From a virus, in the IMG/VR virus record IMGVR_UViG_3300025652_000043, positions 1 to 64,000 of that record: DNA of 64,000 bases; one strand, 5' to 3'. The notes beneath the pieces are model-generated. The model was not told where the DNA came from, made no database searches, and saw only the letters and a program-made list of their open reading frames with translations. The translations under genes were made by a program, and so were the position numbers. Below, piece by piece: positions 22,801 through 44,665 of this stretch (position 1 is the first letter of the stretch; each line of letters opens with the position of its first letter).

Positions 22801-25800
22801 CTACTTCAATCTAGAGAAGATGGTAAAGCACCTAAAAGAAGTGCTTTATTATTAAATAGATCAGGTTTTAAAATTCAACAAGATGTACCTAATAAATCAG
22901 CTAAAAATGGTAGTGACCAAGTATCTATGGGTACACAAATTTTTAAACTATTATTTGGTGATGGTCTTGCACAACATAGTACTAAAGAGTTTGATGGACC
23001 ACAATTATTAGAAGACTTTCATAGAGCTTTTTCTAAGATGATTAATATTAATAAAGATGCTCTTGTTGAAGAATTAGGTTTAGATGAAAATTATCAACCT
23101 AAAGATAAAGAGCAATATATGGAAAAGGTAAAAGCTTTACTTCTTAGAGAAGCTAAAGAAAGAAACTTTTCTGAAAATGATATGAAATCTTTTGACATTG
23201 ACTCTAGAAAAAACTCTAAAACTGGAGAGACAATTTACTATTTCAAACAACCTTTATGGTTGTCAGGCAATAGTAATAAGATTGAGGCAATGTTTAATGC
23301 TATTATAAACAATAAAATTTTTAAGCAAAAATTGCCAGGAAATTCATTTGTAGTAGCATCTAATAATGGTATCACTTTACAAACTCAAGAAAATTTTGAT
23401 AAAAAGAATAATAGTATAGTATACTTAGGAGATTATAAAGGTGGAGAATTACAAGGTAATGAAGTACTTGCACCATCTAGAATTAAACTTAATGGTACAC
23501 TTATAGACCTTTTTGAGGTAAGTGAAAGTGGAAACTATAAATATGTTATAAAAGATAAAGATGGTAGTTTTACTATAAATGAGAAAGCTATAGACCCTGC
23601 TTTATTTGAAAATTTTGTATTTAGAACTCCAACATCTTCACATGGTTCAGGTTCAGGTATTAAAATAGTAGGATTTATTCCTGCAGTATTAGGAGATTTA
23701 ATGATTACTCCTAGTAATTTTGTAACTCAAATGGGTCAGGATTTTGATGTAGATAAGCTTACTGCTTATCAGTATCATCATGTCTATAATGAGAAAACTA
23801 AAAGAATAGAAATCTTTAATAAAGGACATAAAGAAGCAAGATTAAGAAGTTTTAGAAATAAGTTATCTGAAATTGATAATAAAATAAAAAAAGAAGATGA
23901 GCTTTCTAAAGAAGAAAAAGATTCTGTAAATAATTTTCTTAAAGCTTTACTTGCAGATTTTAAAAGTTTTGATAATGCTGAAGAAGCTATAACACAAGTA
24001 GATGAGGTAGTTGATAAAATATTAGAAGATGAAGAAATTACTTTAGCAAAGAAAAGGGATTCTCTCTTAGAAAAATTAAGAACTATGCCTGCTAAACTTG
24101 ATATGAAGTTAGCACAAAATATGTTTATAGGTATACATAATAAAATTTACAATAGTACAGATCCTTTTATACAAGCTAAAATTAATAAAGTGCTTTCAAT
24201 GGATACTGCAACTGAACAAGCAGAAAACATTGATAATAAAGTGAGTAGCTCTAAAATAGTTAACTTAACTTCTCCTAAATATCAAAGAGAAAAATTAATT
24301 TCAGGCTCTACTGGTAATTCTGCTATTGGAGTTTATGCTAAAGGAATGACTCTTAATTCTCTTATACAACAACAAAAAGAAGGAGATAAACTTGAAATTT
24401 TAAATGCAGAAGGAGAGAAAAAAGTAAGATTTATAGGAGACTTAAAAACAGAAGGTGAATTTGGTTTACTTCAAAATTTAACTATTTCTCCTAAAAAAGA
24501 AAATGGAGAAAGAATTGAAGCTACAGAAGTTGAAAAATATTTTACCAGACCTTTAGTTGAATCTTTAGATGAAAGGGTGAACACTGCTACTGATAATGAA
24601 AAAGCTCAAATCTTAGGTAGAGTAGGTATTACTAATATCAAAAATGTTGCAGTAGATAATTTCTTAGCTTTACAAGGTATTGATGTTGAAGTAAGAGAAT
24701 TAGATATAGATAAGGGTGAATATGAGGAAGCTAACCCTTTTCATAAAATAGGTTATTTGCCAGGCACTACTGAGCCTGTATATTATAGTGAACATTCTAT
24801 TCCTTACTTATTACACTCTCAACCTATTATAAAAGAGTATTTTAAAAGGTTAAAGAATGGTAGAGCACAAGCAGGAAACTTAACTAAAGATTTAGAAAAA
24901 ACTATACTTGCTGAATTAATGGGAGACTACAAGATTCAACCTAAATTCAGTGAAAATTTTACAGGTAAAAAACTTTTTAATAGTCTGTCTAATAATATAG
25001 ATTCTGAATTTCAAAAAGAAGTTTTATTTCTATATGCAGATTTAATGAAAGATGCAGATAAGGTTAAAGAAATTCAAAGTTCTATTGACTTATCTAACTT
25101 GGGTAAATCTATGTGGGAAGCTAAAGATAAAATAGAAAAATTTAAAGATTTAGCAACTAATAAGGACTTCAAAAACTTAAGTAATCTTATAGGTGATTTT
25201 AATTATAAGGGTGAAGGGGTTTATTTAGGAGATATAAATATAGGAGATGTTAAGAATACTAAAATAGAGGGTCTTTATTTTAAACCCACTACTAATCAAG
25301 GTATAATGGTTAGTACAGCAGTGTCTCTTGCCAGAAACTTATTTTTAAATAACTTTTTTCCTTATTATGACTCTGCTATTGAGATAGCAATGCAAGATAT
25401 TATTACTGTTTCTGGTAAAAAAGATACTCCTCAATTTAGAGAAGAAGTTTTTAATAATATAAAGCAATTTATAACCTCTTCAGATAGTAATGGAATATTC
25501 TTAGACACTACTAAAAATGTTAGAGAAGACTTATTATTTGAAAAAGATGGTCCATCTTTATCTACTTATGTAGCAGACACATTAGGAGTTACTGATAAAG
25601 AATATTCAAAAGGTATCAATTTACTTGGCAAAAATATTCTTATTACTTCTTTTAGTTATGAGAAAGGAGTAAATGGTAAGCCTAGTTTAATAAAGTATGA
25701 TAATACTGCTGCAGGTAATACTAATGAAGAAGATTTTCATGTAGCTATGAAAGAATTGCTAGTAAGTGATTCTCCTTTACCACCTAGAAATGGTAGACCT

Positions 25801-27336
25801 TATACTACTAGAATGTTAGCTCAAGATTTAGTGTCTTATTCTTATGTATCAGGTGGTATAATTAGTGAAGCTATACAATTTCATAAATTTATTCCTTTAG
25901 AGTATTTTGACCAAATTACTGTAAAACAAGTATATAAAGGTGGCAGAGTCATAGAAATGCCTGTAACTAAAAAAATGCAAGGTTATGATACTAGGATAAT
26001 GAATTGGAGTGATATGGGCATTTTAGGTAATTTCACAACACAATTTATCCAAAATAATCCTACTTTTTCAAGAGCATTATCTAAAGAAGATATAAAATCT
26101 TTAAACTATTTAGACAAGACTAAAAGAAGTTTTGAATATTTTGTTAAAGAGGGAGAAATTTTACCAGAATTTGTAAGGTTATCTGGTAACAGTAGAGCTA
26201 AAAACAAACAAGGAAAAACAAGTCTTTATAAATTAGTTTTTGGAAATACTTATGAGCAAATAGATGTATTAGGTGAATTTGGAATGACTGAATATAGTGC
26301 AAAAGAGTCTGATCTAAAAACATCAATAGGAGTGGCTACCCCTAGAAAAGTATTTACTAAAAAGAATGGAGGATTTACTTATACTCAACCTAAGACTGCA
26401 CCTTTTGAAGCAAATACAGGAGATAGTGTACTTACATTACTTAAAAAAGTAAAAGCAGATAATGCATCTTCTAATCCTAATTTATCTGAAATAGCCTCTA
26501 CTTTAATAGACTTATTTGGAGATAAGGCAATGGAACTTCAAATAAAAGTTGAGGAGGATTTAGGACCTGCAGGAGTTTATAGCCCATCTAATAATACTAT
26601 AACACTCAAAAAAGGTTCTAAAAACTTGGGAGAAACTTTTGTACATGAATTTATACATGGAGTAACTTCAAAATACCTTAATCCTTATATAAATCACACT
26701 ACAGGGCAATTAAAAACTGATATTGAAATTCCTAAAGATATTCAAGAGATAAATAGTGTTTTTCTTGAGACTAGAAATTATATTATAGATACCTATAAAG
26801 AGGAATATGATAATTTTATGTTCAAATGGGAGACTTATAAAGATGCAAAAAAGAATAAAGAAGCTTCTGGTGTTATTTTTACTCCGAGAGAGAGAAATTT
26901 ATTCTATTCTACTGTAAATTTAAAAGAGTATCTTGCAATATCATTAGGAAATAATCAACTTTTATTAGAGGAAACTTCAAAAGTACCTTATAAATCTACT
27001 AAGATTACATTGTCAGAGAAATTGATGAAAGTCTTAAATAGAATATTTGAAAGTATGGCAGGAAAAGAGAATAGTTTAGCTGAACAAATTATAGGTAAAA
27101 ATCTTGATTTTATTCAAAAAAGAGCTAATACTTTAGAAAAATCTTCTGAGAAACTTCCATCTGAATTAGATATACAAAGGGATTTAGGTTCTTCTCCAAA
27201 TTTAGATAACTATTATAATGGAAATGCTCCTCCTCTTGACCAATATGGAGACTTATTTGGTAATGACCAAGATATTTCTTTTGAAAAATTAGTAGAAACA
27301 GTAATGTTACCTCTAGGAACAAAACCTTGTAAATAA
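13837..27336 (+). CDS. Giant virion protein with crAss-type RNA polymerase and zinc metallopeptidase motifs
   Basis: The 4,499-aa product is one of the largest phage proteins I would expect to meet. The sequence TQMGQDFDVDKLTAY has the DFDxD signature (D3302, D3304, D3306) of YonO/crAss-family RNA polymerases, whose Asp triad binds the catalytic Mg2+ in a double-psi beta-barrel. In crAss-like phages this polymerase is packaged, injected and transcribes early genes. Near the C-terminus HEFIH (4270-4274) followed by NLKEYLAISL (E4364) fits a gluzincin-type zinc metallopeptidase of the kind carried by large phage polyvalent proteins. The first ~1,200 residues are helical with long coiled-coil Lys/Glu stretches. 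The gene ends in TAATG with the next gene. Exact domain borders cannot be drawn by eye. Confidence 0.8.
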   Translation: MDDIFEEENLLKHGYKISPFGAAYSDLQGNYLESITIDGQTKSSLIDKKEYTRLYDEHYNLQNSGYKFDPYSGVPESNQKQQGLAKMYAEEFRKDAANAVIPIEVKESEEFKETFKEESKLKEEQGEKVYPTVEAQEEAAEKGTMYESFTEEDMSKEDKSDLKSLMAQKEKLLEEDPDFDAESAQSIEDRNKEAEQYGKYNPIQVFAGLQNIIDSAIAQVVPTGTGMKSEENKLKLEELNKEIASKKRGFVANSKQRLKGSIADIEQRREELNTLAHPQKSTRLDYAQKILEETLWTLEDHENNSWMPQTVFSMYNAIDQGTRGIVGLVSEVPTILHLKYDATNDNDIDESQFLVADALRMRQKVTNANLNQSDAHKFIIGINESLKFVGFSKVGRNAGTTVANNLLAKGLPKVTTKLGKKAVKWGSDLAGFGTQLVMHPSTYYSSADRYAGDITLDEEGNIITDLKTTRTLLRELNESLELIADEQSKGENSVYDKTQLDINKGIIEDAIEKAKANAPAGLVEAFAYGLTETGKELFFETQLTKGLNFLGSKLKKIPSLSKLGKNIDDISAVSKSKGAMDAQRRFAGVSNTGTRVIGNLLEEDLEEVAVQLTPTIGELNWEDYKRQASEVLTFDFHAKVLAQTFVMNKGFQALGKTNEFLDDHSWRNNFTAMIAAGKKGVTKFDYVAERKAAYDRKVFLKTSFTKLGDASSRVIAEDILMKTGEGTITIQDYHNKISELNRAGDPIGAMELKRDLLRKQAIHAANSGATKEFSLALKKLSLNTKVDGQTRQLAKDMLEEANDIQNDVSTYPNSEEILDYKSKLKYSSKTLEEVEMAQLKVQFDDMYENTRNLEEELAKEDLTLQDFSSNEKVEDFDAKVNRVVENLSEHEIQFLKLETVKTTLKNSQKQVNKLLKDATSPETQAIIHERGKYFKTIDEVNRRYFNGKMTASEFKKLVAPTLEKRGVSGILKGGKLVEINNNIYKAKKKGEIQAQAIKSQRTKLRKQAEQEAKDLAQPVEEKIEIVNDVIEEQRENLKKAQEENDVEGIKKATDLLEYWAIEVAKLEKEGSTPAEVETKKAKIEAERQAELKRMTFNELFELFKGHQVGLIGNKKELEGDTFRIIDTVKEGKEVVIERQKPDGTISSFGIPVGKDFKKFEEKYKDVELSIEDINKKYDAEVATLESQPTQQTSEVKVTPAESIVQPVEQKTDEQKKYEASLNKTAEVIDTVISQEADSKIQVNDKDEIDFNDIQDFDLPIEQEHEETVEALKLFAQEYEAVYKVKPTFKDWWEATIEAEDGNIYVFDKNLLEWTAAQWNFAKLGNSNWQKVWKDNYTNNSKIRVRFKSIREAYRSNEELAKVNTEIVKTPIVTSNTPKSPATGNPMALVSGDVTPNVGKTMTTNVKGNFSAIKYQNEKEESGEITVYTKEDKNKEIPQLNENTPLEIKELLHPDNLNPGDKVNIRVIDESEWSTILVNIYNDKGIIDKRISFQEWYDTNSKEWLKDNKGSTLEDFQNSELFISRIPMFYTNPATNNDVMFVADTAWYNQYSMGDPDTDNKVIDLNNPSSTVQESVKLGKKNALQLRQDVIIGEVTEGIIETKTSGFAQKIPGNLPVKTLWEVARDNQIVLFDGSDFVDLEGNTINTNTHVILNMDKVLENFQNAGFNNGTKSTMQSMYLSPDHKTTENGEVIQHYKAFMVLRTDEGGREKQAMREDVETAKLILSAHEALTTKETVNGITYEKALELRDMLLDNSDVALNIAEAEDAYGMVRGLVALETTNGLIDYPSSGGNKKYKSFLTKLLEDKLKVIQNTSKDVPTARGISIKNNDGTFKVEVKPYVDFLKTRLSTNIMSYNMGTEENWASTHNIQPIIKINPVRSEEVKSIQENQQVVNETPTETKVEDIKEDVAKARELEQLKELDKEKDSFLASINALNETTPSTDELSDESLPEMDDVTLIRDSLKTIGDLAAKDQRDIIQFLRDSLSLVVGVSKKDYKRAANKFFKDTYVPTLEKCKEYIEKYEGFHKTFPDDKGVQATLSTLRSQEINFENILKNEEAFFDKAYEEGLKKGNIKDLEDTDDTIKKEDLDHNEEESLTRNFYRSSNEDIHKEKIGAKLKRVFTGIPTGEKGFMGTPLYEDFDMIYNFIATYISSPLPTDPSFNEMVKRLKLIEAKVPWMKEVIKRLEESPQDTKASFVSNMYKYSANAKFVMFNKNKEKGIESSLWFSNRNNHIRKIKESWNENFKRSKIVKGNVLDKKILRGLAEQYESWNPQNKHSESDEVLKDWLAAFGLEFSDGTWEDIKLGKLVLTHKSGSKPISFENLFKPTSKGRNYQLFDSLYKYARDNSKKEGDLDFTENAKLYPLEDLSTTIKGLLDLEVLYNTSTKSITRRDGGKTVSELVYPSFFLDTMRNLISSANDTEGGHQYIKDLMNIPFSENSMILELLLKNKNFKDIFSYGEVGLMSLRNQYEKPNDYAKIEDLSPIDYVFHQMAMFQDMKNEEISATRKGFKMRVGTVSTPTSSDKGRMMLLKTAVYDFFKTDLAFEGDDFKFTKRLKEVLYADLIEPELNRKVQHTTQDVKKYNIGAMRFNNMPSLNYMVNSEGLTVEKFFENIEVRTEKGENLSSEEIKAEFKLQFFTEATNILEQSINSEVNSELKDIQEFEASNDINSSKDGINSTTYLNRKDPLNESDSAMQKKRRAMLDYVINSNISNMNIMQTISGDPAVYYNSKVTPSIKETHDLSSKELGVNMGKRLALMIAPGVALSNSHNEQYIQIMLKDNDIVAPNIELIAGYHYGKSILKKTYEKETYKVIMDKIATGEYKNDSPQYEEIKKKLPKIAPFLSIENTDAQEYTTLAEHLRVLKGLGRINKEQEKNILDNKDNLSEADMSLILQPMKPVYTGEIIERDEKGKVMFKRMVYIKSSSFPLIPELINGTPLEGLMNTMNEIEKKQTKFNGGKYVGVRASYGSANKLGSTEREINPTSETDLATLLQSREDGKAPKRSALLLNRSGFKIQQDVPNKSAKNGSDQVSMGTQIFKLLFGDGLAQHSTKEFDGPQLLEDFHRAFSKMININKDALVEELGLDENYQPKDKEQYMEKVKALLLREAKERNFSENDMKSFDIDSRKNSKTGETIYYFKQPLWLSGNSNKIEAMFNAIINNKIFKQKLPGNSFVVASNNGITLQTQENFDKKNNSIVYLGDYKGGELQGNEVLAPSRIKLNGTLIDLFEVSESGNYKYVIKDKDGSFTINEKAIDPALFENFVFRTPTSSHGSGSGIKIVGFIPAVLGDLMITPSNFVTQMGQDFDVDKLTAYQYHHVYNEKTKRIEIFNKGHKEARLRSFRNKLSEIDNKIKKEDELSKEEKDSVNNFLKALLADFKSFDNAEEAITQVDEVVDKILEDEEITLAKKRDSLLEKLRTMPAKLDMKLAQNMFIGIHNKIYNSTDPFIQAKINKVLSMDTATEQAENIDNKVSSSKIVNLTSPKYQREKLISGSTGNSAIGVYAKGMTLNSLIQQQKEGDKLEILNAEGEKKVRFIGDLKTEGEFGLLQNLTISPKKENGERIEATEVEKYFTRPLVESLDERVNTATDNEKAQILGRVGITNIKNVAVDNFLALQGIDVEVRELDIDKGEYEEANPFHKIGYLPGTTEPVYYSEHSIPYLLHSQPIIKEYFKRLKNGRAQAGNLTKDLEKTILAELMGDYKIQPKFSENFTGKKLFNSLSNNIDSEFQKEVLFLYADLMKDADKVKEIQSSIDLSNLGKSMWEAKDKIEKFKDLATNKDFKNLSNLIGDFNYKGEGVYLGDINIGDVKNTKIEGLYFKPTTNQGIMVSTAVSLARNLFLNNFFPYYDSAIEIAMQDIITVSGKKDTPQFREEVFNNIKQFITSSDSNGIFLDTTKNVREDLLFEKDGPSLSTYVADTLGVTDKEYSKGINLLGKNILITSFSYEKGVNGKPSLIKYDNTAAGNTNEEDFHVAMKELLVSDSPLPPRNGRPYTTRMLAQDLVSYSYVSGGIISEAIQFHKFIPLEYFDQITVKQVYKGGRVIEMPVTKKMQGYDTRIMNWSDMGILGNFTTQFIQNNPTFSRALSKEDIKSLNYLDKTKRSFEYFVKEGEILPEFVRLSGNSRAKNKQGKTSLYKLVFGNTYEQIDVLGEFGMTEYSAKESDLKTSIGVATPRKVFTKKNGGFTYTQPKTAPFEANTGDSVLTLLKKVKADNASSNPNLSEIASTLIDLFGDKAMELQIKVEEDLGPAGVYSPSNNTITLKKGSKNLGETFVHEFIHGVTSKYLNPYINHTTGQLKTDIEIPKDIQEINSVFLETRNYIIDTYKEEYDNFMFKWETYKDAKKNKEASGVIFTPRERNLFYSTVNLKEYLAISLGNNQLLLEETSKVPYKSTKITLSEKLMKVLNRIFESMAGKENSLAEQIIGKNLDFIQKRANTLEKSSEKLPSELDIQRDLGSSPNLDNYYNGNAPPLDQYGDLFGNDQDISFEKLVETVMLPLGTKPCK

Positions 27337-34900: not shown

Positions 34901-36526
34901 TTAGAATAATGAACCACCTTGACCTTGTGGCATAGGTGGATTTTTCTCCATGAGTGTAGTAATAGTGCACTCTGTAGTTAACAGCATACCTGCTGCTGAA
35001 GCTGCATTTTCCAATGCAATTCTAGTTACCTTTACAGGGTCTATAATTCCAGCCTCTATCATATCAGCTTCATAAGAATTATTCCTTGCATTAAAACCAG
35101 AATTTTTCTTTCTTGATTTTAATACATTAGCAATAACTACAGAACCTTCTGCTCCTGCATTCTCTGCTATACATCTAATAGGGCTTTCAACAGCTTTTAG
35201 CACTAACTGTGCTCCAAGCAATAGAGTGCCTGTTAGAGGACTTAAATCAACTTTGGCTCTAGCTTGTAAATAAGCTACACCACCACCAGAAACAATACCC
35301 TCTTCTAAAGCAGCCTTAGTTGCATTTTTAGAATCTTCTACTCTGTCCATTTTCTCTTTCATTTCAGTCTCAGTAGGTGCTCCTACATAAATTACTCCTA
35401 CACCACCTTTAAGAGAAGCTATTCTTTTTTTAAAGTCATTGGTTTCATAGTCATTTTCTGCACTTACCATTAAAGATTCAATTTCTTCTACTCTAAAGTT
35501 AATAATTTCAGGTTCACCTTTACCTCCTATTAAAATAGTGTCATGAAAATCAATCCTAACAGAGTCACATTTTCCAAAATCATCAGAAGTTACTTTATTC
35601 AAGTATTTACCTCTTTCTTTTGATACAATTTTACCTCCTAAAACAGTTTGAATATCTTCTAAATAGGCTTTTCTTCTTTCTCCAAATGCAGGTGGCTTTA
35701 CTATAGCTACTTTCATTTGTCCTTCATAAGCATTAACCACTAAAGTTTCTAATGCTTGTCCTTCTACATCTCCTATAATCAACAAGGATTTTCCTTGTCC
35801 TATAGACTTATCTAAAATGTTTTTTAAAGGTGTACCAAAACTATTAAGTTTATCTTCACACATAAGTACATATACATCTTCAAGGTGTACTTCACCTTTC
35901 TTTTTGTCATTGACAAAATAAGGAGAGATGTATCCTGAACCAAATTTCATACCTTCAGCAAGGTCTACATGAGTTGTAGTATCTTTAGATTGTTCTACAG
36001 ATATAACACCTTCTTTACCTACTTTGGCATAAGCCATACCAACTAATTCTCCTATTTCTTCATCATTATTAGAAGAAATAAAAGCAATTTGATTTAGTTC
36101 TTCATCTTCATTTCCTATTTCTACTGATAGTTTTTTAAGCTCATCAATAAGAAGTTCAGCTCCAATTTTAATACCTCTCTGTACTGCTACAGGGTTATGT
36201 CCATTAGAAATTAACCTCATACCTAGCTTAATAAGGGATTGAGTAAGTACTGAAGCAGTAGTAGTTCCATCTCCTGCTTTTTCATTAGTTTTAGATGCTG
36301 CAGCTTTTACAAATTGTGCACCCATATTTTGTAATCTATTAGGGAGTACAACCTCTCTAGCTACAGAAATACCATCTTTAGTAATTCCTGGATCACCAAA
36401 AGCTCTTTCAATCATTACATTTCTACCTTGTGGTCCTAAAGTCACTTTTACTGCATTTGCTAGGGCATCAACCCCTTTTTTCAATTGCTTCTTGGCTTTT
36501 TGTCCATGTACAATTTTTTTACTCAT
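34901..36526 (-). CDS. groEL: GroEL chaperonin (group I, full length)
   Basis: The 541-aa protein is a complete group I chaperonin: VKVTLGPQGRNV (27-37), the ATPase loop GDGTTTA (85-91), ENMG-like LQNMGAQFV, and C-terminal EAGIIDPVKVTRIALENAAS. It should form the 14-mer that folds proteins with ATP and a GroES cap. The tail ends in MPQGQGGSLF rather than the usual GGM repeats. Equatorial, intermediate and apical regions are all present with no frameshift. It overlaps groES by 8 bases, as the last gene of a coupled run that begins at the E2-like gene. Phage GroEL is rare. Substrates are unknown; the giant virion proteins or the capsid are plausible clients (inference). Confidence 0.95.
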   Translation of the reverse strand: MSKKIVHGQKAKKQLKKGVDALANAVKVTLGPQGRNVMIERAFGDPGITKDGISVAREVVLPNRLQNMGAQFVKAAASKTNEKAGDGTTTASVLTQSLIKLGMRLISNGHNPVAVQRGIKIGAELLIDELKKLSVEIGNEDEELNQIAFISSNNDEEIGELVGMAYAKVGKEGVISVEQSKDTTTHVDLAEGMKFGSGYISPYFVNDKKKGEVHLEDVYVLMCEDKLNSFGTPLKNILDKSIGQGKSLLIIGDVEGQALETLVVNAYEGQMKVAIVKPPAFGERRKAYLEDIQTVLGGKIVSKERGKYLNKVTSDDFGKCDSVRIDFHDTILIGGKGEPEIINFRVEEIESLMVSAENDYETNDFKKRIASLKGGVGVIYVGAPTETEMKEKMDRVEDSKNATKAALEEGIVSGGGVAYLQARAKVDLSPLTGTLLLGAQLVLKAVESPIRCIAENAGAEGSVVIANVLKSRKKNSGFNARNNSYEADMIEAGIIDPVKVTRIALENAASAAGMLLTTECTITTLMEKNPPMPQGQGGSLF

Positions 36527-36791
36527 CTTCTTTTAGTTTACAAATTAAATTATCTTCTGTTGTATGGATGTATTCTACACCCTCAATTGATACTTTAGAA
36601 AAGTCATACTGACCATATACTACTATATCTCCTATAGAGGTATTTATAACCTCTTCACCTATTCCTACTACTTTACCTGCTAACTTTACAGTATCAGGTT
36701 CAACAGTATCAGGAATGATGTAGTCCTCATTTTCAGAGGACTCATCTTCCATTTCTATGAGAATTCTTTTCCCATAAATACTTTCAATCAT
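36519..36791 (-). CDS. groES: GroES-like co-chaperonin
   Basis: The 90-aa protein fits the Cpn10 fold: GKRILIEMED near the N-terminus, GKVVGIGEEV (about 39-48), GDIVVYGQYD (54-63) and VEYIHTTEDNLICKL at the end, matching the family's closing strands. The mobile-loop region (about 18-35) is acidic and unlike that of host GroES, with DYIIPDTVEPDT in place of the usual GGI-L loop. It overlaps both neighbours (201-aa gene by 8 bases, groEL by 8), so the pair is co-translated. It would cap the phage GroEL or compete for the host ring. Confidence 0.85.
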   Translation of the reverse strand: MIESIYGKRILIEMEDESSENEDYIIPDTVEPDTVKLAGKVVGIGEEVINTSIGDIVVYGQYDFSKVSIEGVEYIHTTEDNLICKLKEDE

Positions 36792-37395: not shown

Positions 37396-38565
37396 TTAAA
37401 TGATTAGGTCTCCATTATTTTCCATGACTACCTTATCCACTTCATATCCATTTTCCTCATGCCATTTATATAGCTCAAGAGCATATTCAAAACCTATAAT
37501 AGGTTTATACTTAATAGGATGAAAAGGAGAATGAATTTGTCCTTTTTCTAAATCTGCTCTACTATGTGAAATTAAATATATTTCTGGTCTTCCATATTTA
37601 CCTAAATCTAATTGTTCTTCAGATAGTGTAAACATTAGAGGTGACCCTTGAAAATATTGTGTTTCACCTGTCAACTTATTAGTTTTATACTTAGTAGTTT
37701 CAACCATAAACTTAAAAGGTAGTATTTCAAATTCTTCATTTACTATTTCTTTTAATTCTATGAGTGTTTCCACATTTTCAGGGTTACTTAACAATGCATT
37801 AAGACCTTCTGTATAAAAAGAACCTTGGAAATTATATCCAAATTTCTTAACTGCATCAGGGAATTCAACTGGAAATCCTGATGTTGTTTTAAGGTCAATT
37901 GGTAATATAGTTTCATTTAGAGTATCAACAATAACTATATCCAATAAAACTTTACATTCTACATCATCGTAGGTAAAGTATATTGGAACTTGAAAGAAGA
38001 AATTAACACCTAATGTACCTACTGTTTTAAGGTATTTACTGGTATACTTATTAGTTTCTAAAGACATAATAATATTACTTATGATATTTGATTCTACATC
38101 AGACAAAATCTGCTTTCCAAAAGCTAATTTTAAATCTTCAAAATAATCAAATCCCATTTCTGCAATTTTATTAATCCTAGTTTCTTCTTTCCATCTTGTC
38201 TGGTATTTATGGTCATCTGCAGAAGCTAGTATTGCATCAGACCAACTATGTAGAGTTCCCACATCAATTGAACCTGAAACTTCAACAGCATGATCAAATA
38301 CTTGATTAATCATACTCATAACTGTATCAGAGGGTTTTATAATTCTAGACACATGATATTGCTCATTAAAAGCTTCCTTTCCTTGAGTTATCTGATAATC
38401 CACTGCTGAACCTATTACTAGATGTCCTTTTTCTTCATAGTACATCTCTTGTTCAGTCTTTGCTAGAAAAGCTATTCCTCTTCTTAAATTCTTTAAATAA
38501 GAATTAGATGCTGCTTTTCTTTCAAAATAATCTATTACTTCTTCTTGTTTTCCTAATCTATACAT
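37396..38565 (-). CDS. PD-(D/E)XK exonuclease (RecB/Cas4-like)
   Basis: The 389-aa protein has an ordered RecB-type active site: G-x-x-V-D near the N-terminus (HLVIGSAVDYQI, 48-59), Asp in KVLLDIVIVD (about 209), the core IDLKTTSG (D224, K226) and the QxxxY motif in FQGSFYTEGL (Q247, Y251). It should be a Mg2+-dependent DNA exonuclease, likely acting in recombination or end processing during replication. It overlaps the upstream small nuclease by 13 bases and lies 6 bp from the next gene, in the same run as the ubiquitin-like genes. Confidence 0.8.
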   Translation of the reverse strand: MYRLGKQEEVIDYFERKAASNSYLKNLRRGIAFLAKTEQEMYYEEKGHLVIGSAVDYQITQGKEAFNEQYHVSRIIKPSDTVMSMINQVFDHAVEVSGSIDVGTLHSWSDAILASADDHKYQTRWKEETRINKIAEMGFDYFEDLKLAFGKQILSDVESNIISNIIMSLETNKYTSKYLKTVGTLGVNFFFQVPIYFTYDDVECKVLLDIVIVDTLNETILPIDLKTTSGFPVEFPDAVKKFGYNFQGSFYTEGLNALLSNPENVETLIELKEIVNEEFEILPFKFMVETTKYKTNKLTGETQYFQGSPLMFTLSEEQLDLGKYGRPEIYLISHSRADLEKGQIHSPFHPIKYKPIIGFEYALELYKWHEENGYEVDKVVMENNGDLII

Positions 38566-38993
38566 AAATCTGCTAGTTTTAAAAGTTCTTTAAAATCATT
38601 TAAAGTCATACTGACTATTTCATCAAATTCATTTCTTTTTCTTCCTCTACCAGTATCCTTTTTATGAATTAGAATATTCATATTCTTTAATTCAGGATAA
38701 TGTGATGGAAAATTCTTCTTTACTTCTTCTTTAATTTTAGCCAACTCTTTGCTAACTATAAGACCTCTCTGTTTTCCAGCTTTAATCTGAATATTAAATG
38801 GTTCAGTAAAACATAAATCTATGCCTGAATCATCATGCAGCCTACTAGCTGCTCTTGAGGTTTTACATTTTTCAAATGCTGGTCCTAGTGCCCGAAACAA
38901 AGCAGCATAGTGCCTTTCAGCATCATGCCCCTTTGTTCTATTCCTACTGCCTTGTGATCTAACTTTTCTCACAGGCTTATTCTCTTCTGCCAT
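38553..38993 (-). CDS. Small PD-(D/E)XK nuclease (Holliday-junction resolvase-like)
   Basis: The 146-aa protein has E26 in GHDAERHYAAL, GIDL (D59) and the core FNIQIKAGK (Q69, K71), the E...D...(Q/E)xK arrangement of small PD-(D/E)XK enzymes such as VRR-NUC or archaeal resolvases. It is very basic at the N-terminus (RKVRSQGSRNRTKGHD), which suits DNA binding. A role in resolving branched replication intermediates is likely but not proven by sequence. It starts 1 bp after the stop of the 221-aa gene. Confidence 0.7.
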   Translation of the reverse strand: MAEENKPVRKVRSQGSRNRTKGHDAERHYAALFRALGPAFEKCKTSRAASRLHDDSGIDLCFTEPFNIQIKAGKQRGLIVSKELAKIKEEVKKNFPSHYPELKNMNILIHKKDTGRGRKRNEFDEIVSMTLNDFKELLKLADLCID

Positions 38994-39659
38994 TTATATT
39001 GCCTTATTAAAAGCAAATAAATACTCTTTCATTTCTGTAATAGACTTAAATTTAAGCCTTTTCAAGTTACTCTTAAAGCACCTATTCACTATATTATTAG
39101 TAATAATAACATCTACACCTTTATTAGAGTGAGGTAAAATTATCTCTCTATAAAATTTATTGTAAATGGTTTTGTATTGTGCAGAGGTACAAAATTTATT
39201 TGACACAAGAATTGCAAATTTAGAATAGTCTAAGGGTCTACCTTCCCTATCTTCTTCATGCATTTGCTTTGTATATTCAGTCTTAACAACAACAGAAAAT
39301 AATATTTCTATATCTTCTTCAATTTTTCTAAAAAGAATACCTTTCATTGCAAACAATGGCTCTTCCATTGATTTAGTTTTGAAAGCATTAGGAACAGAAT
39401 TTAAGTCTAAAAATTTATAAAGTAATTTATAACCTTTAGCTACATTCTGTCCAGGAAGATAGTTTGGAACTCCATAATGAATTATTTTACCACTGTAGAT
39501 ACCCATATTTATAGTGGATGCCGTAATAGGTATATATTCATTATCAGAGGAAATTCCAACAGCATTGCTATAAAACTCCACTGCTTCTCCTGCTCTTTCT
39601 TGTCTTTTTTTTAAATTAGAAAAATATTTGTCTCTTTTTAATGTTATTAAGTCTATCAT
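38994..39659 (-). CDS. Unknown protein coupled to the E1-like enzyme
   Basis: This 221-aa protein starts inside the stop codon of the E1-like gene (ATGA). No family is recognised. It has a charged helical N-terminus (LKRDKYFSNLKKRQERAGEAVEFY), then beta-rich sequence (YIPITASTINMGIYSGKIIHYG; ILFSVVVKTEY) and a basic C-terminal region. Its strict coupling suggests it belongs to the ubiquitin-like system, as a substrate, adaptor or E3-like factor. That role is inferred from position alone. Confidence 0.55.
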   Translation of the reverse strand: MIDLITLKRDKYFSNLKKRQERAGEAVEFYSNAVGISSDNEYIPITASTINMGIYSGKIIHYGVPNYLPGQNVAKGYKLLYKFLDLNSVPNAFKTKSMEEPLFAMKGILFRKIEEDIEILFSVVVKTEYTKQMHEEDREGRPLDYSKFAILVSNKFCTSAQYKTIYNKFYREIILPHSNKGVDVIITNNIVNRCFKSNLKRLKFKSITEMKEYLFAFNKAI

Positions 39660-40330
39660 GATGTCAAATTTATTGGTATAAAATACTCATGATAAAATGG
39701 AACTTGTCTTACTACACTACCTACTTTAATATTAGTCATATGATTGGTAAAAAATCCAACCATTAGACTAGCTATCATAGTAGCTGAGTGAGAAGTCTGT
39801 TTCATAGTACAATTTTCTTCTTCTACCTCTGAATCATCAAATAAATGTTCATCAAAATATTCTCTAGCATTAGTAGGAGTGACACAAAAAATCTGCATTT
39901 GCTCCATTAATAGTCTACCGTCTATTAATATTGCATTAGGATTTTCACTGTTATCTCTCCACCATACCTCAAACATTTCTTTTCTAGCTTTCATATTATC
40001 AAAAGCTGCAAACATGTATTCATGTCCCATTGACTCTAAAGTGAATGGTTCATTAAATATTGTGATATAGCTGTCAGAGTACTCTAACACAATATTTTTC
40101 AAAGCCTCAACTTTGTCTAGTCCTATATGTTTTTTTCCAAATAATTGTCCACCTAAATTGTGCTGTTCAATTATATCAAAATCATATACAACAGGACTAA
40201 ACCCTGCTCTGGCTAATAAGAAAGTTAACCAACTTCCTATTCCTCCTGCACCACCAATTAAGGTATTAATTTCCTCTTCAGGAAACCATGGTGCATCTTT
40301 AAATCTACTTCTTATTTCTGTCTTATTCAT
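39656..40330 (-). CDS. ThiF/E1-like ubiquitin-activating enzyme
   Basis: The 224-aa protein is a compact E1-type adenylating enzyme. It shows the nucleotide-binding loop LIGGAGGIGSWL (24-35), acidic residues D50 and D52 ending strand 2, the NLGGQLF motif (N58, Q62, equivalent to NxxRQ), K73, the Mg-binding D111 in AAFDNMKARK and a candidate catalytic Cys in EENCTMKQTSHSATMIASLMV (C174). It lacks the CxxC zinc pairs of MoeB/ThiF. It should adenylate the C-terminus of a ubiquitin-like protein and pass it to a Cys. It overlaps the JAB gene by 8 bases and the 221-aa gene by 4. Confidence 0.85.
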   Translation of the reverse strand: MNKTEIRSRFKDAPWFPEEEINTLIGGAGGIGSWLTFLLARAGFSPVVYDFDIIEQHNLGGQLFGKKHIGLDKVEALKNIVLEYSDSYITIFNEPFTLESMGHEYMFAAFDNMKARKEMFEVWWRDNSENPNAILIDGRLLMEQMQIFCVTPTNAREYFDEHLFDDSEVEEENCTMKQTSHSATMIASLMVGFFTNHMTNIKVGSVVRQVPFYHEYFIPINLTS

Positions 40331-41498
40331 GTACTGCTAATTTTGTAAGCATTGCTTCTAAAGACATTTTAAGTGGTGCACATATTGGATACACACCCTC
40401 AAAATCCTCTAATATTGCCATTACTCCTATTGTTGTATCAATAAAAACTTCTGTGTTAATCTCTCCAAATACATCCCAAAACTTTTCAAATAGTGCTGGA
40501 TACATTATTAGAACTTTATTAATATATTCTTCTGAATGTACCATGCCTAAAGTATTTTCAAGTGTATCCTCTAAATCTTCTCTATCATTTATAGGAAGAT
40601 TACCTAGATTTATTACATTTTGTAAAAAACTTTCCATTCTTTTTTCTTTAATTTGTACATCAGGTGTCATGGAAAAAGAGTTGTTCCACATATCAGCATC
40701 TAAATCTTCCATTTCTTTATCCATCATAGCATCATTAGATCTAAACCCATTAAAATTACCTGGACTTACATAAGGATTTACTTTTGAAAATGGATTTAAA
40801 AGCTTTTGACTTTCAAATTGTTTTACATTTTTTTTAAAAACTTTTTGCTTTAAATTAGAAGCATTAATAATCTCTAAAGTTCTATCAGCAAAATCTTTAG
40901 GAACTTTAACAAATGTCTTAGGTTCACTAATTTTACAATCAAAATGAAACATAACTTGTCTTTCTTTTTTCAAAGTTAAATCCCATGGTTGTCCTGCTTC
41001 ATCTTTACATTCATAAGCTTTTATAGTACCTCTAAAAGCAACTTTTGCTACTTTCTCTCCTCTATTATTCACTACTAATGATAGATAATAATTGTGAAAT
41101 TCAGTATTATCATCTAATTCATCCATATCAGTTCCAGAAAAATAACTTTTCATATTATGATGGGAGTGAATCATTCCAATTTTCCAAGCTAAAGTTTCAG
41201 GATTATCCATTCTATATGAAATAAAATTTTCTCCTAATTCATATCCTGTTGCACCTGTAGTACCTTTATCCATAGGGTATACATCTTGTACAACAAGTTT
41301 CATCTTACTAAAATTGGTTATACTACCCTCTACAGTATAAAATAAAACTCCTGACCATTCTACTTTATTAATTTTCTGGCATAAATAGTCTATTTTTTCT
41401 TGTACTTTCTTTGGTATTTTCAATGGTATCAAGTTGTTCAATAATATATCTTCTAATTCTACTTTTTTGAATTTTTGATTCAATTCTTTTTGTGACAT
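40323..41498 (-). CDS. JAMM/JAB-domain metallopeptidase (deubiquitinase-like)
   Basis: The 391-aa protein carries a perfect JAMM motif: E48 (VEWSGVLFY) and HSHHNMKSYFSGTD, i.e. HxH(7x)SxxD at 111-124 (H111, H113, S121, D124), which binds zinc. JAMM enzymes cleave isopeptide or peptide bonds after ubiquitin-like tails. After the catalytic domain (about 25-185) comes a long helical extension with a Pro/Asn-rich linker (NPYVSPGNFNGFRS) and an acidic segment. The start at 41498 gives a 131-base overlap with the E2-like gene in another frame; the next Met (66) would remove part of the fold. It may mature or remove the ubiquitin-like protein. Confidence 0.88.
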   Translation of the reverse strand: MSQKELNQKFKKVELEDILLNNLIPLKIPKKVQEKIDYLCQKINKVEWSGVLFYTVEGSITNFSKMKLVVQDVYPMDKGTTGATGYELGENFISYRMDNPETLAWKIGMIHSHHNMKSYFSGTDMDELDDNTEFHNYYLSLVVNNRGEKVAKVAFRGTIKAYECKDEAGQPWDLTLKKERQVMFHFDCKISEPKTFVKVPKDFADRTLEIINASNLKQKVFKKNVKQFESQKLLNPFSKVNPYVSPGNFNGFRSNDAMMDKEMEDLDADMWNNSFSMTPDVQIKEKRMESFLQNVINLGNLPINDREDLEDTLENTLGMVHSEEYINKVLIMYPALFEKFWDVFGEINTEVFIDTTIGVMAILEDFEGVYPICAPLKMSLEAMLTKLAVHE

Positions 41499-42540
41499 AA
41501 TCTTTTATTGTTTTAGTTATGAAGAAAGGTTTAACTGTTTCTTCATTTGGAATTACTTTAAATTTTTTTATTTCTCCTTTAAATATGAAATCAAAATTTC
41601 TATATTCTTCTTCTTCAGACATGTAATAAGAAAGGTCTTTAGGTATATTTCTATAAGTATAGTAATTACCTTTACTGTCTTTTTGTGCAATATGATCAGG
41701 TGGATAATCACCATTATGGTCATATATTTTAAGATACTCTTCAAAAGCAGTATCTTGAGCTATTTTAACATTATCTCTTGTGATTATAAAGTTAATATTA
41801 GATGTTCCTTTCTTTTCAATAAGGTCTATATAATATTTTCTTATATGTTGTGGAGAAACATTTCTACATTCTCCTCCACCTATTACATTAGCAATTTTTA
41901 TATGTGGTGTACCTTCTAAAGATTCCCAATTTAAATACTCTTCTAATTGCATTAGAAATAATTTAAATATGTCTGGTTTAAAACCAGAAGACAACATTGT
42001 TAATACTTGTCTAATTTCACTTGTACCTAAACAAAATGAATTAAATGTTAATCCACTCTTACCTTCTAAAGGAAAGTAACTTTTATAGTTTCTTGATGGT
42101 AAATGGCTGTGCTGATAAGAAGAAAATATTTCTCCTTCTGTAGCTGTCATTCTTTTACCTTGAAAACTATGAAAAGTAAATCCGTTATTATGACTATAAG
42201 GTAAAAGCTTAATATATAAATCAACAATTTTATGTCTCATTCCAGGAGAATTAGTAATATTAATCTCAGGAAAATATAAAATAAAATCTAAAGTAAAATA
42301 CCTTTCTTTGTCAACTATTAAACCCTCATTTGCATTGACTTTTTTATTGTACCTTAACAAGATATCCCATTTTTCAGGATATACAGCATCTAAACAAGAT
42401 GCTATTGAGTCAATTTTCTCATTGACTCCTTTATAATTTAAACTAAGTTTACCATATTTCTCTATGGCTTTAACAGACCTAATCTTTTTCTCAATAGAAG
42501 ACCTGTTAAATGCTTCTATATAAATATCTTTTCTGTTCAT
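41368..42540 (-). CDS. E2-like ubiquitin-conjugating protein (PRTRC-B/Prok-E2-type)
   Basis: The 390-aa protein resembles bacterial E2-like families associated with JAB and E1 genes. Core signs are FILYFPEINITNS followed by HKIVDLYIKL (86-112, the E2 beta-sheet with its YP...I.N..H.I.D pattern), GKRMTATEGEIFSSYQHSHLP (128-148, conserved HSHL) and FNSFCLGTSEI (C170 as candidate catalytic Cys), with a helical region after. The last ~170 residues are an extra domain of unknown role. It would take the activated ubiquitin-like protein from E1. It is preceded by a terminator that separates it from the UBL gene, yet overlaps the JAB gene by 131 bases. The family call rests on pattern recognition. 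Confidence 0.7.
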   Translation of the reverse strand: MNRKDIYIEAFNRSSIEKKIRSVKAIEKYGKLSLNYKGVNEKIDSIASCLDAVYPEKWDILLRYNKKVNANEGLIVDKERYFTLDFILYFPEINITNSPGMRHKIVDLYIKLLPYSHNNGFTFHSFQGKRMTATEGEIFSSYQHSHLPSRNYKSYFPLEGKSGLTFNSFCLGTSEIRQVLTMLSSGFKPDIFKLFLMQLEEYLNWESLEGTPHIKIANVIGGGECRNVSPQHIRKYYIDLIEKKGTSNINFIITRDNVKIAQDTAFEEYLKIYDHNGDYPPDHIAQKDSKGNYYTYRNIPKDLSYYMSEEEEYRNFDFIFKGEIKKFKVIPNEETVKPFFITKTIKDYVTKRIESKIQKSRIRRYIIEQLDTIENTKESTRKNRLFMPEN

Positions 42541-42556
42541 TTTTTTATTTTAAATA

Positions 42557-42587
42557 AAAAGCCAAAGACACTATATCTTTGGCTTTT
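42557..42587 (-). terminator. Intrinsic terminator between UBL and E2-like genes
   Basis: AAAAGCCAAAGA pairs perfectly with TCTTTGGCTTTT (12 bp, 7-base loop), followed by a T-rich run on the - strand. It should limit transcription from the UBL gene into the E2-like gene, making UBL more abundant than its enzymes. Confidence 0.8.
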
Positions 42588-42604
42588 ATGAGTTATAAAT
42601 ATTT

Positions 42605-43585
42605 CTATCTAACATCATTAAATTGACTTCTCATGTCTTGCAACTTTTGATTCAATTCATTTTGTTTTTTCTCTTCAGCTTCAGCTTTTTTTCTTTCTTC
42701 TTTTTCAGCTTTAGCTTTTAATTCAGCCTCCTCTTTAGCTAAAGCTTCTTTTAAAGCTATTGCAGCTTTTTCTTTAATCTTTTTAGCTTTCTTAGCTTCT
42801 TTTGCTAACTGTTTGGTCCAAATTTTAGTAGCCTTATTAAGCTTTTTTTCTAGTCTTTTAGTAATAGCTTCTATATCTTCATGTAAGTCTTCATCTAACT
42901 CACTAAAATTAACTACTCTAAGTAAAGAAATTGCATCAACTAAAGAGTCTAAACTAATATGAGAATTATCTTTAAAATGAGCTAAATTAACCTCCTTCTC
43001 TTCAGTTGTAGAAATTTTTTGAGCATTTTCCTTTACAGACTTAACAATATTAACAACTTTTTGAGCTTTTTCAATAATATTATTAATCCTAGTTTCTTCA
43101 ATATCATCTTTTTTAGGCTTTTCAGCTTTCACCTTTTTAACAGGTGTTTTCTTTACTTTTGGTGTAACTGATGTCATACCTAAATCTTCTAAAGCTGGTA
43201 TTGTACCAGTATAGTTGCTTAATAATGCTCTTAAGATTTCTGTACCTTTAATGGTGTAATTTTTACCACCTCCATTAAAGTAGTCTTTAGCAGTTCCATC
43301 ACCAGCCACAAGCTCTTTAATTGTAGCCCTAAGTTGCTTATAACTATAAGCTGATACATCTGCACCAGCTTTAGTTTTTTTGTTCATTAGAAATAAGGTA
43401 AAACCTTCAGTAGGTAATACAGCTCCATCAGCTTCTAATGTTAACTTATTCTCTCCAATAACAGCTTTCATCTTGTTATAAGAAACATTATTTGCATCTA
43501 AATCATTTTGTAACTCACCCCAATTTTTGGCATCAGTGGTCACTTCTTTTTCACCCATTTGGGTGGAGAAAACTTTTACTATCAT
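42605..43585 (-). CDS. Ubiquitin-like beta-grasp protein with long charged C-terminal extension
   Basis: The first ~75 residues fit a beta-grasp/MoaD-ThiS-like fold: MIVKVFSTQMGEKEV (strands 1-2), a helix, then a Gly/Leu-rich middle, and FTLFLMNKKTKAG (final strand). There is no GG at the real C-terminus. Instead a helical domain follows, with GGG at 105-107, then a Lys/Glu-rich coiled coil (about 145-326) ending in FNDVR. The genetic link to JAB, E1 and E2-like genes is the strongest reason for the call. The tail could be removed by the JAB peptidase, or the protein could act as a fixed substrate or adaptor. It lies 21 bp from the primase gene and 17 bp before a terminator. Confidence 0.65.
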   Translation of the reverse strand: MIVKVFSTQMGEKEVTTDAKNWGELQNDLDANNVSYNKMKAVIGENKLTLEADGAVLPTEGFTLFLMNKKTKAGADVSAYSYKQLRATIKELVAGDGTAKDYFNGGGKNYTIKGTEILRALLSNYTGTIPALEDLGMTSVTPKVKKTPVKKVKAEKPKKDDIEETRINNIIEKAQKVVNIVKSVKENAQKISTTEEKEVNLAHFKDNSHISLDSLVDAISLLRVVNFSELDEDLHEDIEAITKRLEKKLNKATKIWTKQLAKEAKKAKKIKEKAAIALKEALAKEEAELKAKAEKEERKKAEAEEKKQNELNQKLQDMRSQFNDVR

Positions 43586-43606: not shown

Positions 43607-44665
43607 TTATTTTATTAATTTATTCTCTAACAAGAAGTTTGTTAGAGGTACTTTACCTTTATTTTTTATAAGGTCTGCAGGATCAGAAATTTTATCTCTT
43701 AATAGACTTGTTTTAAGATGAATACCCCTTGATTTTTTAGGGTAAACACTATTAATTTTATCTACTAATTTTTCTGAAGCAATTATTCCTGCTCTATCAT
43801 TATCAAAAAATACTATAATCTCCTTAAATCTCTCTAGGAGTGGATACAATATTTCATCATTTGGGTACATTCCTTCATTTTGAAAAGCTATAACATTTAA
43901 TCCTTGATTTTTAAGAATTCTCCAATCCTTATAAGATTTAGTTATTATTAATTGCTTTCCTTTTAAGGGTAAATTATTTAGTCCCCAAATATCATTTGCA
44001 CAACAATTTGTAGCCCATTTACCTTTTCCTTTTTTATCAGGTGTATATATTTTAACTCTAGGATTAAAATTACCCACTAGATAAGACCTAGTTTGAGGTC
44101 TTATTACTACATGAGACCTTAATCTTTTAGAAAAAACTTTATACCAAATTATAGGGAAGACATTATCTTCTATAAGGTCACTCCTACTAATTTCTAAAGG
44201 AGACCAGAAATCCTTATCTCCAAGAGAGTTAAACATTCTGACTTTAAATGGCATTTCATGTGAGATTTTCTTTTTACTTTTTACTTGAATAATCTCTTTC
44301 TTTTTATTGGCAACATAATCAGAGTCATCATGATGACCTGCTAATAAATTTAGTTTAAAATGGTCATTAACTATTTCTAAAGATTTATAAAAAGATACTT
44401 CAAAATGGTCTTGTACCATATTAAAACAATCTCTATGTTTTCTTTTTTGAATAGGTTCTGCCCAATCTATAAACCAAAAAGTATTTTTATACCATTCAAA
44501 ATAGCAATCAGGTAGGTTATCTTTTCTAAAAGGAGAATGAACATATTGATGTTCTGTAGGCATATAACCTAATATCATTTTAAAAATGTCTTGTTGTGAA
44601 ATTTTAGCTAATATATCCTCTTTAGATATATAAACTCTTGCTTCTCTATAACCATATCCACCCAT
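43607..44665 (-). CDS. DnaG-like primase (Toprim domain)
   Basis: The 352-aa protein has the phage DnaG-like layout. An N-terminal module (YVHSPFRKDNLPDCYFEW...FIDWAEP, about 40-75) corresponds to the region before the catalytic core. The Toprim part contains LIITKSYKDWRIL (in place of the usual acidic motif, as in several phage primases) and VFFDNDRAG (the DxD metal site). It should make RNA primers for the replisome. It has the SSB gene upstream, separated by a terminator, and the UBL gene 21 bp downstream. Confidence 0.85.
   Translation of the reverse strand: MGGYGYREARVYISKEDILAKISQQDIFKMILGYMPTEHQYVHSPFRKDNLPDCYFEWYKNTFWFIDWAEPIQKRKHRDCFNMVQDHFEVSFYKSLEIVNDHFKLNLLAGHHDDSDYVANKKKEIIQVKSKKKISHEMPFKVRMFNSLGDKDFWSPLEISRSDLIEDNVFPIIWYKVFSKRLRSHVVIRPQTRSYLVGNFNPRVKIYTPDKKGKGKWATNCCANDIWGLNNLPLKGKQLIITKSYKDWRILKNQGLNVIAFQNEGMYPNDEILYPLLERFKEIIVFFDNDRAGIIASEKLVDKINSVYPKKSRGIHLKTSLLRDKISDPADLIKNKGKVPLTNFLLENKLIK

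Follow-up and report, generated by a model that had tools for sequence, protein, structure and literature searches.

What could a phage do with a set of genes of the ubiquitin-like conjugation type placed among the genes with which it copies its DNA? The question is raised by a 64,000-nucleotide stretch (hereafter, the window; positions 1 to 64,000 of the 83,041-base IMG/VR virus record IMGVR_UViG_3300025652_000043), in which five consecutive open reading frames (ORFs) encode a ubiquitin-like protein (UBL), a protein resembling ubiquitin-conjugating enzymes (E2-like), a JAMM metallopeptidase, a ThiF-like activating enzyme (E1), and an accessory protein denoted X. An original prediction, made from the nucleotide sequence alone, described these genes as a conjugation cassette; the genes are confirmed as described, and the interpretation is supported in part. 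The analysis reported here suggests that they probably make up a phage-encoded ubiquitin-like conjugation pathway, with UBL as the tag and the E1, the E2-like protein and JAMM as its enzymes. The cassette is carried, among the DNA-copying genes, by a family of Bacteroidota viruses that includes crAss001 and DAC15, which are cultured gut phages.

Spread and genomic setting of the cassette

Searches with the E1 protein and with an E1 alignment yielded 80 further viral loci, and annotated records added crAss001, Fpv1, and cr111_1; the resulting comparison set consists of 94 loci including near-duplicates, with 65–73 distinct sequences per core family. Throughout the 94 loci, the genes follow the order primase-UBL-E2-JAMM-E1-(X). 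The E2-like and JAMM genes are present in every locus with enough upstream sequence; the only two loci without both, L089 and L094, start just before E1. The only loci in which hidden Markov model (HMM) search did not detect the UBL are those truncated upstream and L091, where the UBL slot is occupied by an ORF of 81 amino acids ending in RTKAG-N that is the best match to the UBL profile in this locus (E = 8.7e-4 within the locus and 0.075 over all ORFs). The cassette always lies inside the replication operon, with the primase on one side and resolvase/exonuclease or uracil-DNA glycosylase genes on the other side. At median identities of 20–45%, the catalytic residues show no or almost no variation. 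The ThiF and Prok-JAB matches, the recurrence of the four-gene order in the non-truncated relatives and the near-invariance of the catalytic residues argue that the cassette is not a chance assembly.

Among named phage records, the E1 was found in 78 (four of these are giant Xanthomonas/Erwinia phages) and JAMM was detected in 74; without the four giant phages, the E1 records number 74 as well, and the two name tallies are identical (tallies were matched, not individual accessions). The named Crassvirales that carry the set and had their lineage checked, crAss001, cr111_1, and DAC15, all belong to Steigviridae. In the GenBank annotation of crAss001 and its relatives, the E1 is called "thiamine biosynthesis protein," JAMM is listed as "metalloprotease domain containing protein," and the UBL and the E2-like protein are "hypothetical protein." The original prediction had missed this wide family, with its cultured members crAss001, DAC15, and Fpv1, as well as the C-terminally extended precursor form of the UBL discussed below.

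In the window, all five ORFs are on the minus strand, arranged head to tail, at the positions first given for them, with overlaps of 131 nucleotides (E2-like/JAMM), 8 nucleotides (JAMM/E1), and 4 nucleotides (E1/X), and with 64 nucleotides between the UBL and E2-like ORFs, so that their description as consecutive and mostly overlapping stands (Table 1). The motif positions in the UBL, E2-like, JAMM, and E1 genes were verified codon by codon. Besides the flanking primase, resolvase, and exonuclease genes, the vicinity encodes a DNA polymerase, a helicase of the Dda type, an annealing protein similar to Sak4, and a protein that resembles DnaB-type helicases, which together confirm the predicted location in a replication operon. 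The nearest named relatives of the record are Flavobacterium phages FpV4 and Fpv3 (43% identity, via a virion protein of 2143 amino acids), and the record is related to Flavobacterium phages Fpv1/Fpv3.

Table 1 Features of the cassette and its flanking genes, in window coordinates
Feature	Position	Strand	Evidence or remark
PD-(D/E)XK exonuclease gene (context)	37396-38565	-	phrog_412, 5.1e-18
RusA-like resolvase gene (context)	38553-38993	-	phrog_244, 1.9e-10
X221, accessory protein coupled to E1	38994..39659	-	221 amino acids
E1-like ThiF-fold adenylyltransferase, single domain	39656..40330	-	224 amino acids; PF00899, 9.9e-15; phrog_15670, 2.2e-85
C174, candidate E1 catalytic cysteine	39809..39811	-	69/69; counterpart of the PRTRC_ThiF PSCS cysteine in the alignment
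GGAGGIGS nucleotide-binding motif (E1 26-33)	40232..40255	-	near-invariant
JAMM/JAB metallopeptidase	40323..41498	-	391 amino acids; Prok-JAB, 4.6e-4; hhalign to PRTRC_A
HSHHNMKSYFSGTD (JAMM 111-124), HxH-x7-SxxD zinc motif	41127..41168	-	near-invariant residues
JAMM catalytic E47	41358-41360	-	71/71
E2-like protein	41368..42540	-	390 amino acids; PRTRC_B slot; AlphaFold2 pLDDT 86
C170-L-G172, candidate E2 catalytic cysteine	42025..42033	-	C170, G172 70/70
HSHL motif (H144-L147), may correspond to the E2 HPN region	42100..42111	-	S145, H146 69/69
UBL precursor, beta-grasp residues 1-74 plus 252-residue extension with SAP/HeH-like helices and a long coiled coil	42605..43585	-	326 amino acids; AlphaFold2, Foldseek
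KTKAG (UBL 70-74), end of ubiquitin-like domain; G74, predicted processing/activation glycine	43364..43378	-	codons checked
DnaG-like primase (context)	43607..44665	-	phrog_12622 DNA primase, 8.1e-61

The X HMM matches 74 ORFs of the related loci, each located directly after E1; in Steigviridae, this slot is taken by another gene (gp75 in crAss001). When every member of the X, UBL, and E2-like families was compared with Pfam, no consistent family emerged for any of the three. Several cassette genes are interrupted at or beside their motifs. A group I intron (RF00028, 89 bits), which carries a LAGLIDADG endonuclease, is inserted exactly in the E1 nucleotide-binding motif, GGAGGIG^S (L067:6045-7058). 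The JAMM gene of Fpv1 is split at GH^IHSH, with an endonuclease encoded on the opposite strand (L013:7048-8070; the Fpv3 gene is uninterrupted), and another JAMM gene is split just past HSHNTM by a segment encoding a LAGLIDADG endonuclease (L093:4502-5682). Neither of these two JAMM inserts matched an intron in Rfam, and each could be an intron or a free-standing insertion. The positions of the intron and inserts, exactly at the E1 motif and at or next to the JAMM HSH motif, fit genes under strong constraint, as is seen with introns in indispensable genes.

Two further features of the window lie outside the cassette. Genes for GroEL (541 amino acids) and GroES (90 amino acids, Cpn10 E = 1.2e-7) are located directly downstream of the replication operon (34901-36791, minus strand) and likewise in the near-identical loci L002-L004 (L005 stops before that point). 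A single ORF of 4499 amino acids (13837-27336, plus strand) lies inside a plus-strand block of very large proteins.

Folds and active sites of the cassette proteins

The UBL, predicted from the outset to have a beta-grasp fold, indeed adopts the ubiquitin fold in its AlphaFold2 model (predicted local distance difference test, pLDDT, 91–98 over residues 1–70). Foldseek comparison of this model with the PDB retrieved ubiquitin, NEDD8, SUMO, and ISG15 at probabilities of 0.95–1.00 (best E = 3.6e-3), with TtuB also among the matches; the TM-score by target was 0.55–0.69 for most single-domain ubiquitin-family matches. Lack of a ubiquitin fold would have counted against the original prediction, and these matches show the opposite. 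The end of the domain is marked by G74, the sole fully invariant column of the family (65/65 sequences at a median identity of 26%); K72 is present in 64 of the 65 sequences, position 73 is serine or alanine, and K-[SA]-G occurs in all 65. Beyond this glycine, between 1 and 267 residues follow. The shortest forms, of 79–91 amino acids, stop almost at the glycine (KTKSG-E in L051, RTKAG-N in L091, and KTKSG-LINQ in L088); a terminal motif of this kind closes only 7 of the 4051 ORFs in these loci, and 4 of the 7 are these UBL genes. The extension often includes a SAP/HeH-like helical segment (with weak SAP matches) and a long coiled coil. A conserved core that ends at one glycine, followed by a replaceable tail, fits a precursor of the ubiquitin type.

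The predicted ThiF-like E1 is borne out by the PF00899 match, which is above the cut-off, and its GGAGGIGS motif and candidate C174 are present. Within the motif, G27, G29, and I31 are conserved in 70/70 sequences and G30 and S33 in 69/70; the protein also keeps N58 and the invariant D50, D52, K73, and D111, and the Pfam match along with these other conserved residues places it in the ThiF family. Profile-profile comparison with hhalign related the E1 to PRTRC_ThiF with P = 4.5e-18 over 198 columns; for JAMM and PRTRC_A, the values were 7.2e-8 and, with a larger PRTRC_A set, P = 6e-7. Control profiles, reversed and unrelated, gave 0.05 or worse. The E1 also matched MoeB/ThiF-type E1s (9.7e-23 over the N-terminal 107 columns), as expected at the superfamily level, and was the only cassette family for which profile searches of PDB sequences found relatives. 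In a maximum-likelihood tree (built by a quick method, with long branches and a midpoint root), the phage E1s form one clade (support 97) on the PRTRC side of a split (support 95) from MoeB/ThiF-type proteins. The sister of this clade (support 89) is the E1 of the giant Xanthomonas phage PhiXhv-15 (L137, 228 kb; PF00899, E = 9e-21), whose gene neighbors encode two topoisomerases and a protein of 892 amino acids that matches no Pfam family; no recognizable JAB or UBL neighbor was found among the proteins scanned in that locus.

In JAMM, the HxH(7x)SxxD motif is complete, as predicted, and essentially invariant (H111 and H113, 71/72 each; S121 and D124, 71/71 each), as is E47; the Prok-JAB match falls short of the curated cut-off. 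In the E2-like family, S145, H146, C170, G172, E206, S207, and G210 are invariant. The AlphaFold2 model of this protein resembles E2 in the order of elements (helix, four strands, HSH, cysteine, helices), and the distance from HSHx to the cysteine spans 10–35 residues across the family, with no HPN asparagine identified. The E2-like profile found no match in 148 genomes belonging to the same phylum as the Bacteroidales genome G004.

Proposed pathway and rival explanations

The pathway would start with a UBL precursor, from which JAMM would cut off the C-terminal extension after the glycine of K-[SA]-G, G74. Judging from its intact motifs, the E1 would adenylate the exposed glycine with ATP and may carry it as a thioester on C174. 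The UBL would then pass to C170 of the E2-like protein, which, with or without X, would join it to a lysine of a target protein; JAMM may also strip the UBL from targets. Because the cassette is always found in the replication operon, the likeliest targets, judged by location alone, might be phage or host DNA-replication proteins, a speculative assignment to which we give a little less than even weight. More tentatively, one might propose that in Bacteroidota phages, including the cultured gut Steigviridae, reversible UBL modification of the phage replisome serves as a viral replication switch, run by a minimal set of E1, E2, JAMM, and UBL of common ancestry with the plasmid PRTRC cassettes.

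Several observations weigh against a conjugation pathway. The HSHL motif and C170 are present as predicted, with H146 and C170 invariant, but an E2 fold was not established: no E2 is among the listed Foldseek matches of the model in the PDB, and in BFVD nothing but phage homologs stood out. The hhalign comparison of the whole protein with PRTRC_B was no better than controls (P = 0.086); a trimmed version gave a marginal result (none of 60 shuffles reached the score, by a margin of 0.1), and for the Steigviridae set, 6 of 60 shuffles did. The best local match falls on the cysteine, with the overall score at or near the control level. Since no E2 is among the listed Foldseek matches and the PRTRC_B comparison is close to control, the label "E2-like" reflects position, motif, and topology and not proven homology. 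In addition, the UBL ends in a single glycine, not Gly-Gly, and has no hhalign signal with PRTRC_C; the arginine of the canonical NxxRQ motif is replaced by glycine in all aligned phage E1s (N58-x-x-G61-Q62), so that ATP activation may differ; and no E3 and no substrate are known for the cassette.

It is rather unlikely that the cassette acts on host defense instead of replication, by modifying or mimicking ubiquitin-like or nucleotide-signaling systems such as Bil and CBASS Cap2/Cap3. Both of these turn E1/E2/JAB chemistry on phages (PMC11354881, PMC12355090), and a phage could conjugate a defense protein or sequester its E1; yet the place of the cassette in the replication operon is fixed across very diverse phages, whereas anti-defense genes would be expected in patchy accessory locations, and the complete active-site set speaks against a simple decoy. 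Still less of a case can be made for a sulfur-carrier system for nucleotide, tRNA, or DNA thiolation, in which a ThiS/MoaD-like UBL would receive a thiocarboxylate made by the E1 and JAMM would release the product; this we consider improbable. The E1 is of the single-domain ThiF type, its GenBank name points to thiamine biosynthesis, and JAB peptidases have been linked to prokaryotic sulfur-carrier UBL neighborhoods (PMC1779556). Nevertheless, searches of the phage record for rhodanese and PAPS reductase gave no match, the E2 slot holds a protein with an invariant cysteine, the E1 groups away from MoeB/ThiF, and the UBL extensions reach 267 amino acids.

Long extensions with SAP/HeH-like helices and a coiled coil, present in most members, could alternatively mean that the UBL is never cleaved and instead stays attached as the N-terminal domain of a replication protein of the DNA-binding or coiled-coil kind, a scaffold docking on the E1 and JAMM. 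The natural forms of 79–91 amino acids, nearly devoid of an extension, and the full invariance of G74, which no other residue of the family shares, make this highly improbable. If the conjugation pathway is real, ubiquitin-like tagging would be a core part of the replication operon in a large group of phages including cultured gut phages, beyond its role in bacterial defense; PRTRC-type cassettes, long annotated without a function, would gain culturable, testable relatives; and genes of crAss001 and related phages now labeled "thiamine biosynthesis protein" or "metalloprotease" would be annotated differently. These phages may thus tag proteins during infection, a possibility testable in laboratory-grown phages.

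Comparison with known systems

We found no earlier description of a phage E1-E2-JAMM-UBL cassette in the open-access literature, and the main text of a 2021 survey of crAss-like phage genomes (PMC7886860) does not mention ThiF, JAB, PRTRC, or ubiquitin. On the bacterial side, E1/E2/JAB systems are known from Bil and CBASS, where they are used against phages (PMC11354881, PMC12355090). In BilABCD, the UBL, E2, JAMM, and E1 form one operon, and JAMM trims the UBL to expose its C-terminal glycine; BilA has two Ubl domains, BilD consists of inactive and active adenylation domains and a Cys domain, and BilB contains a CEHH motif (PMC11354881). The phage cassette combines the same four kinds of genes, but they are the phage's own, with a single Ubl domain of 74 residues, a single-domain E1 of 224 residues, and no E/H/H at CEHH spacing after C170; by the features described for Bil, it is not a Bil system. 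CBASS Cap2 (an E1-E2 fusion) and Cap3 (JAB) likewise bring E1/E2/JAB conjugation chemistry into the conflict between bacteria and phages, and there is weak E1 similarity; in contrast, the phage cassette lacks a CD-NTase, the modifier is a UBL, the E1 and E2 are separate proteins, and the genes are on the phage side. A separate locus (L125, genome G033) encodes a protein of 433 amino acids in which an apparently JAB-like N-terminal part is joined to a ThiF-like domain; an ORF of 144 amino acids precedes it, and the locus may be a Bil-like or CBASS-like system.

UBL-JAB pairs of phages are known from tail operons (PMC1779556). As in the UBL studied here, an extra domain follows the C-terminal glycine of TAPI in phages lambda and T1, and TAPI has a JAB peptidase (TAPK) as partner (PMC1779556); those are, however, tail genes without an E1 or E2, whereas here the genes lie in a replication operon along with an E1 and an E2-like protein.

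The resemblance to PRTRC noted in the original prediction is supported. Nine PRTRC loci were taken from plasmids; in those in which both B and A are annotated, the order C(UBL)-(F)-B(E2)-A(JAB)-ThiF(E1) equals the phage order UBL-E2-JAMM-E1. The profile comparison proposed at that time relates the phage E1 and JAMM to PRTRC_ThiF and PRTRC_A, but detects no relation of the UBL and the E2-like protein to PRTRC_C and PRTRC_B. In both cassettes the UBL domain ends in a TKG-like glycine, but PRTRC_C stops at this residue or a few residues past it, and X is not part of PRTRC. Some PRTRC loci adjoin replication genes, e.g., dnaG and dnaN. In the Chroococcidiopsis thermalis plasmid pCHRO.01 (L102), a JAB-ThiF pair lies between a DEAD/DEAH helicase gene and genes for a PD-(D/E)XK nuclease and dnaN. 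The ParB, E, and F genes of the cassette of plasmids and integrative and conjugative elements (ParB-E-C-F-B-A-ThiF) are not found beside the phage cassette, and the phage proteins score far under the NCBIfam cut-offs (22.7 vs 144.75 bits for ThiF and 18.9 vs 101.8 bits for PRTRC_A). Given these scores and the lack of an adjacent ParB gene, the phage cassette does not qualify as a member of PRTRC under current definitions; it is best viewed as a relative or analog of the PRTRC cassettes, with which it has in common the order of the four genes.

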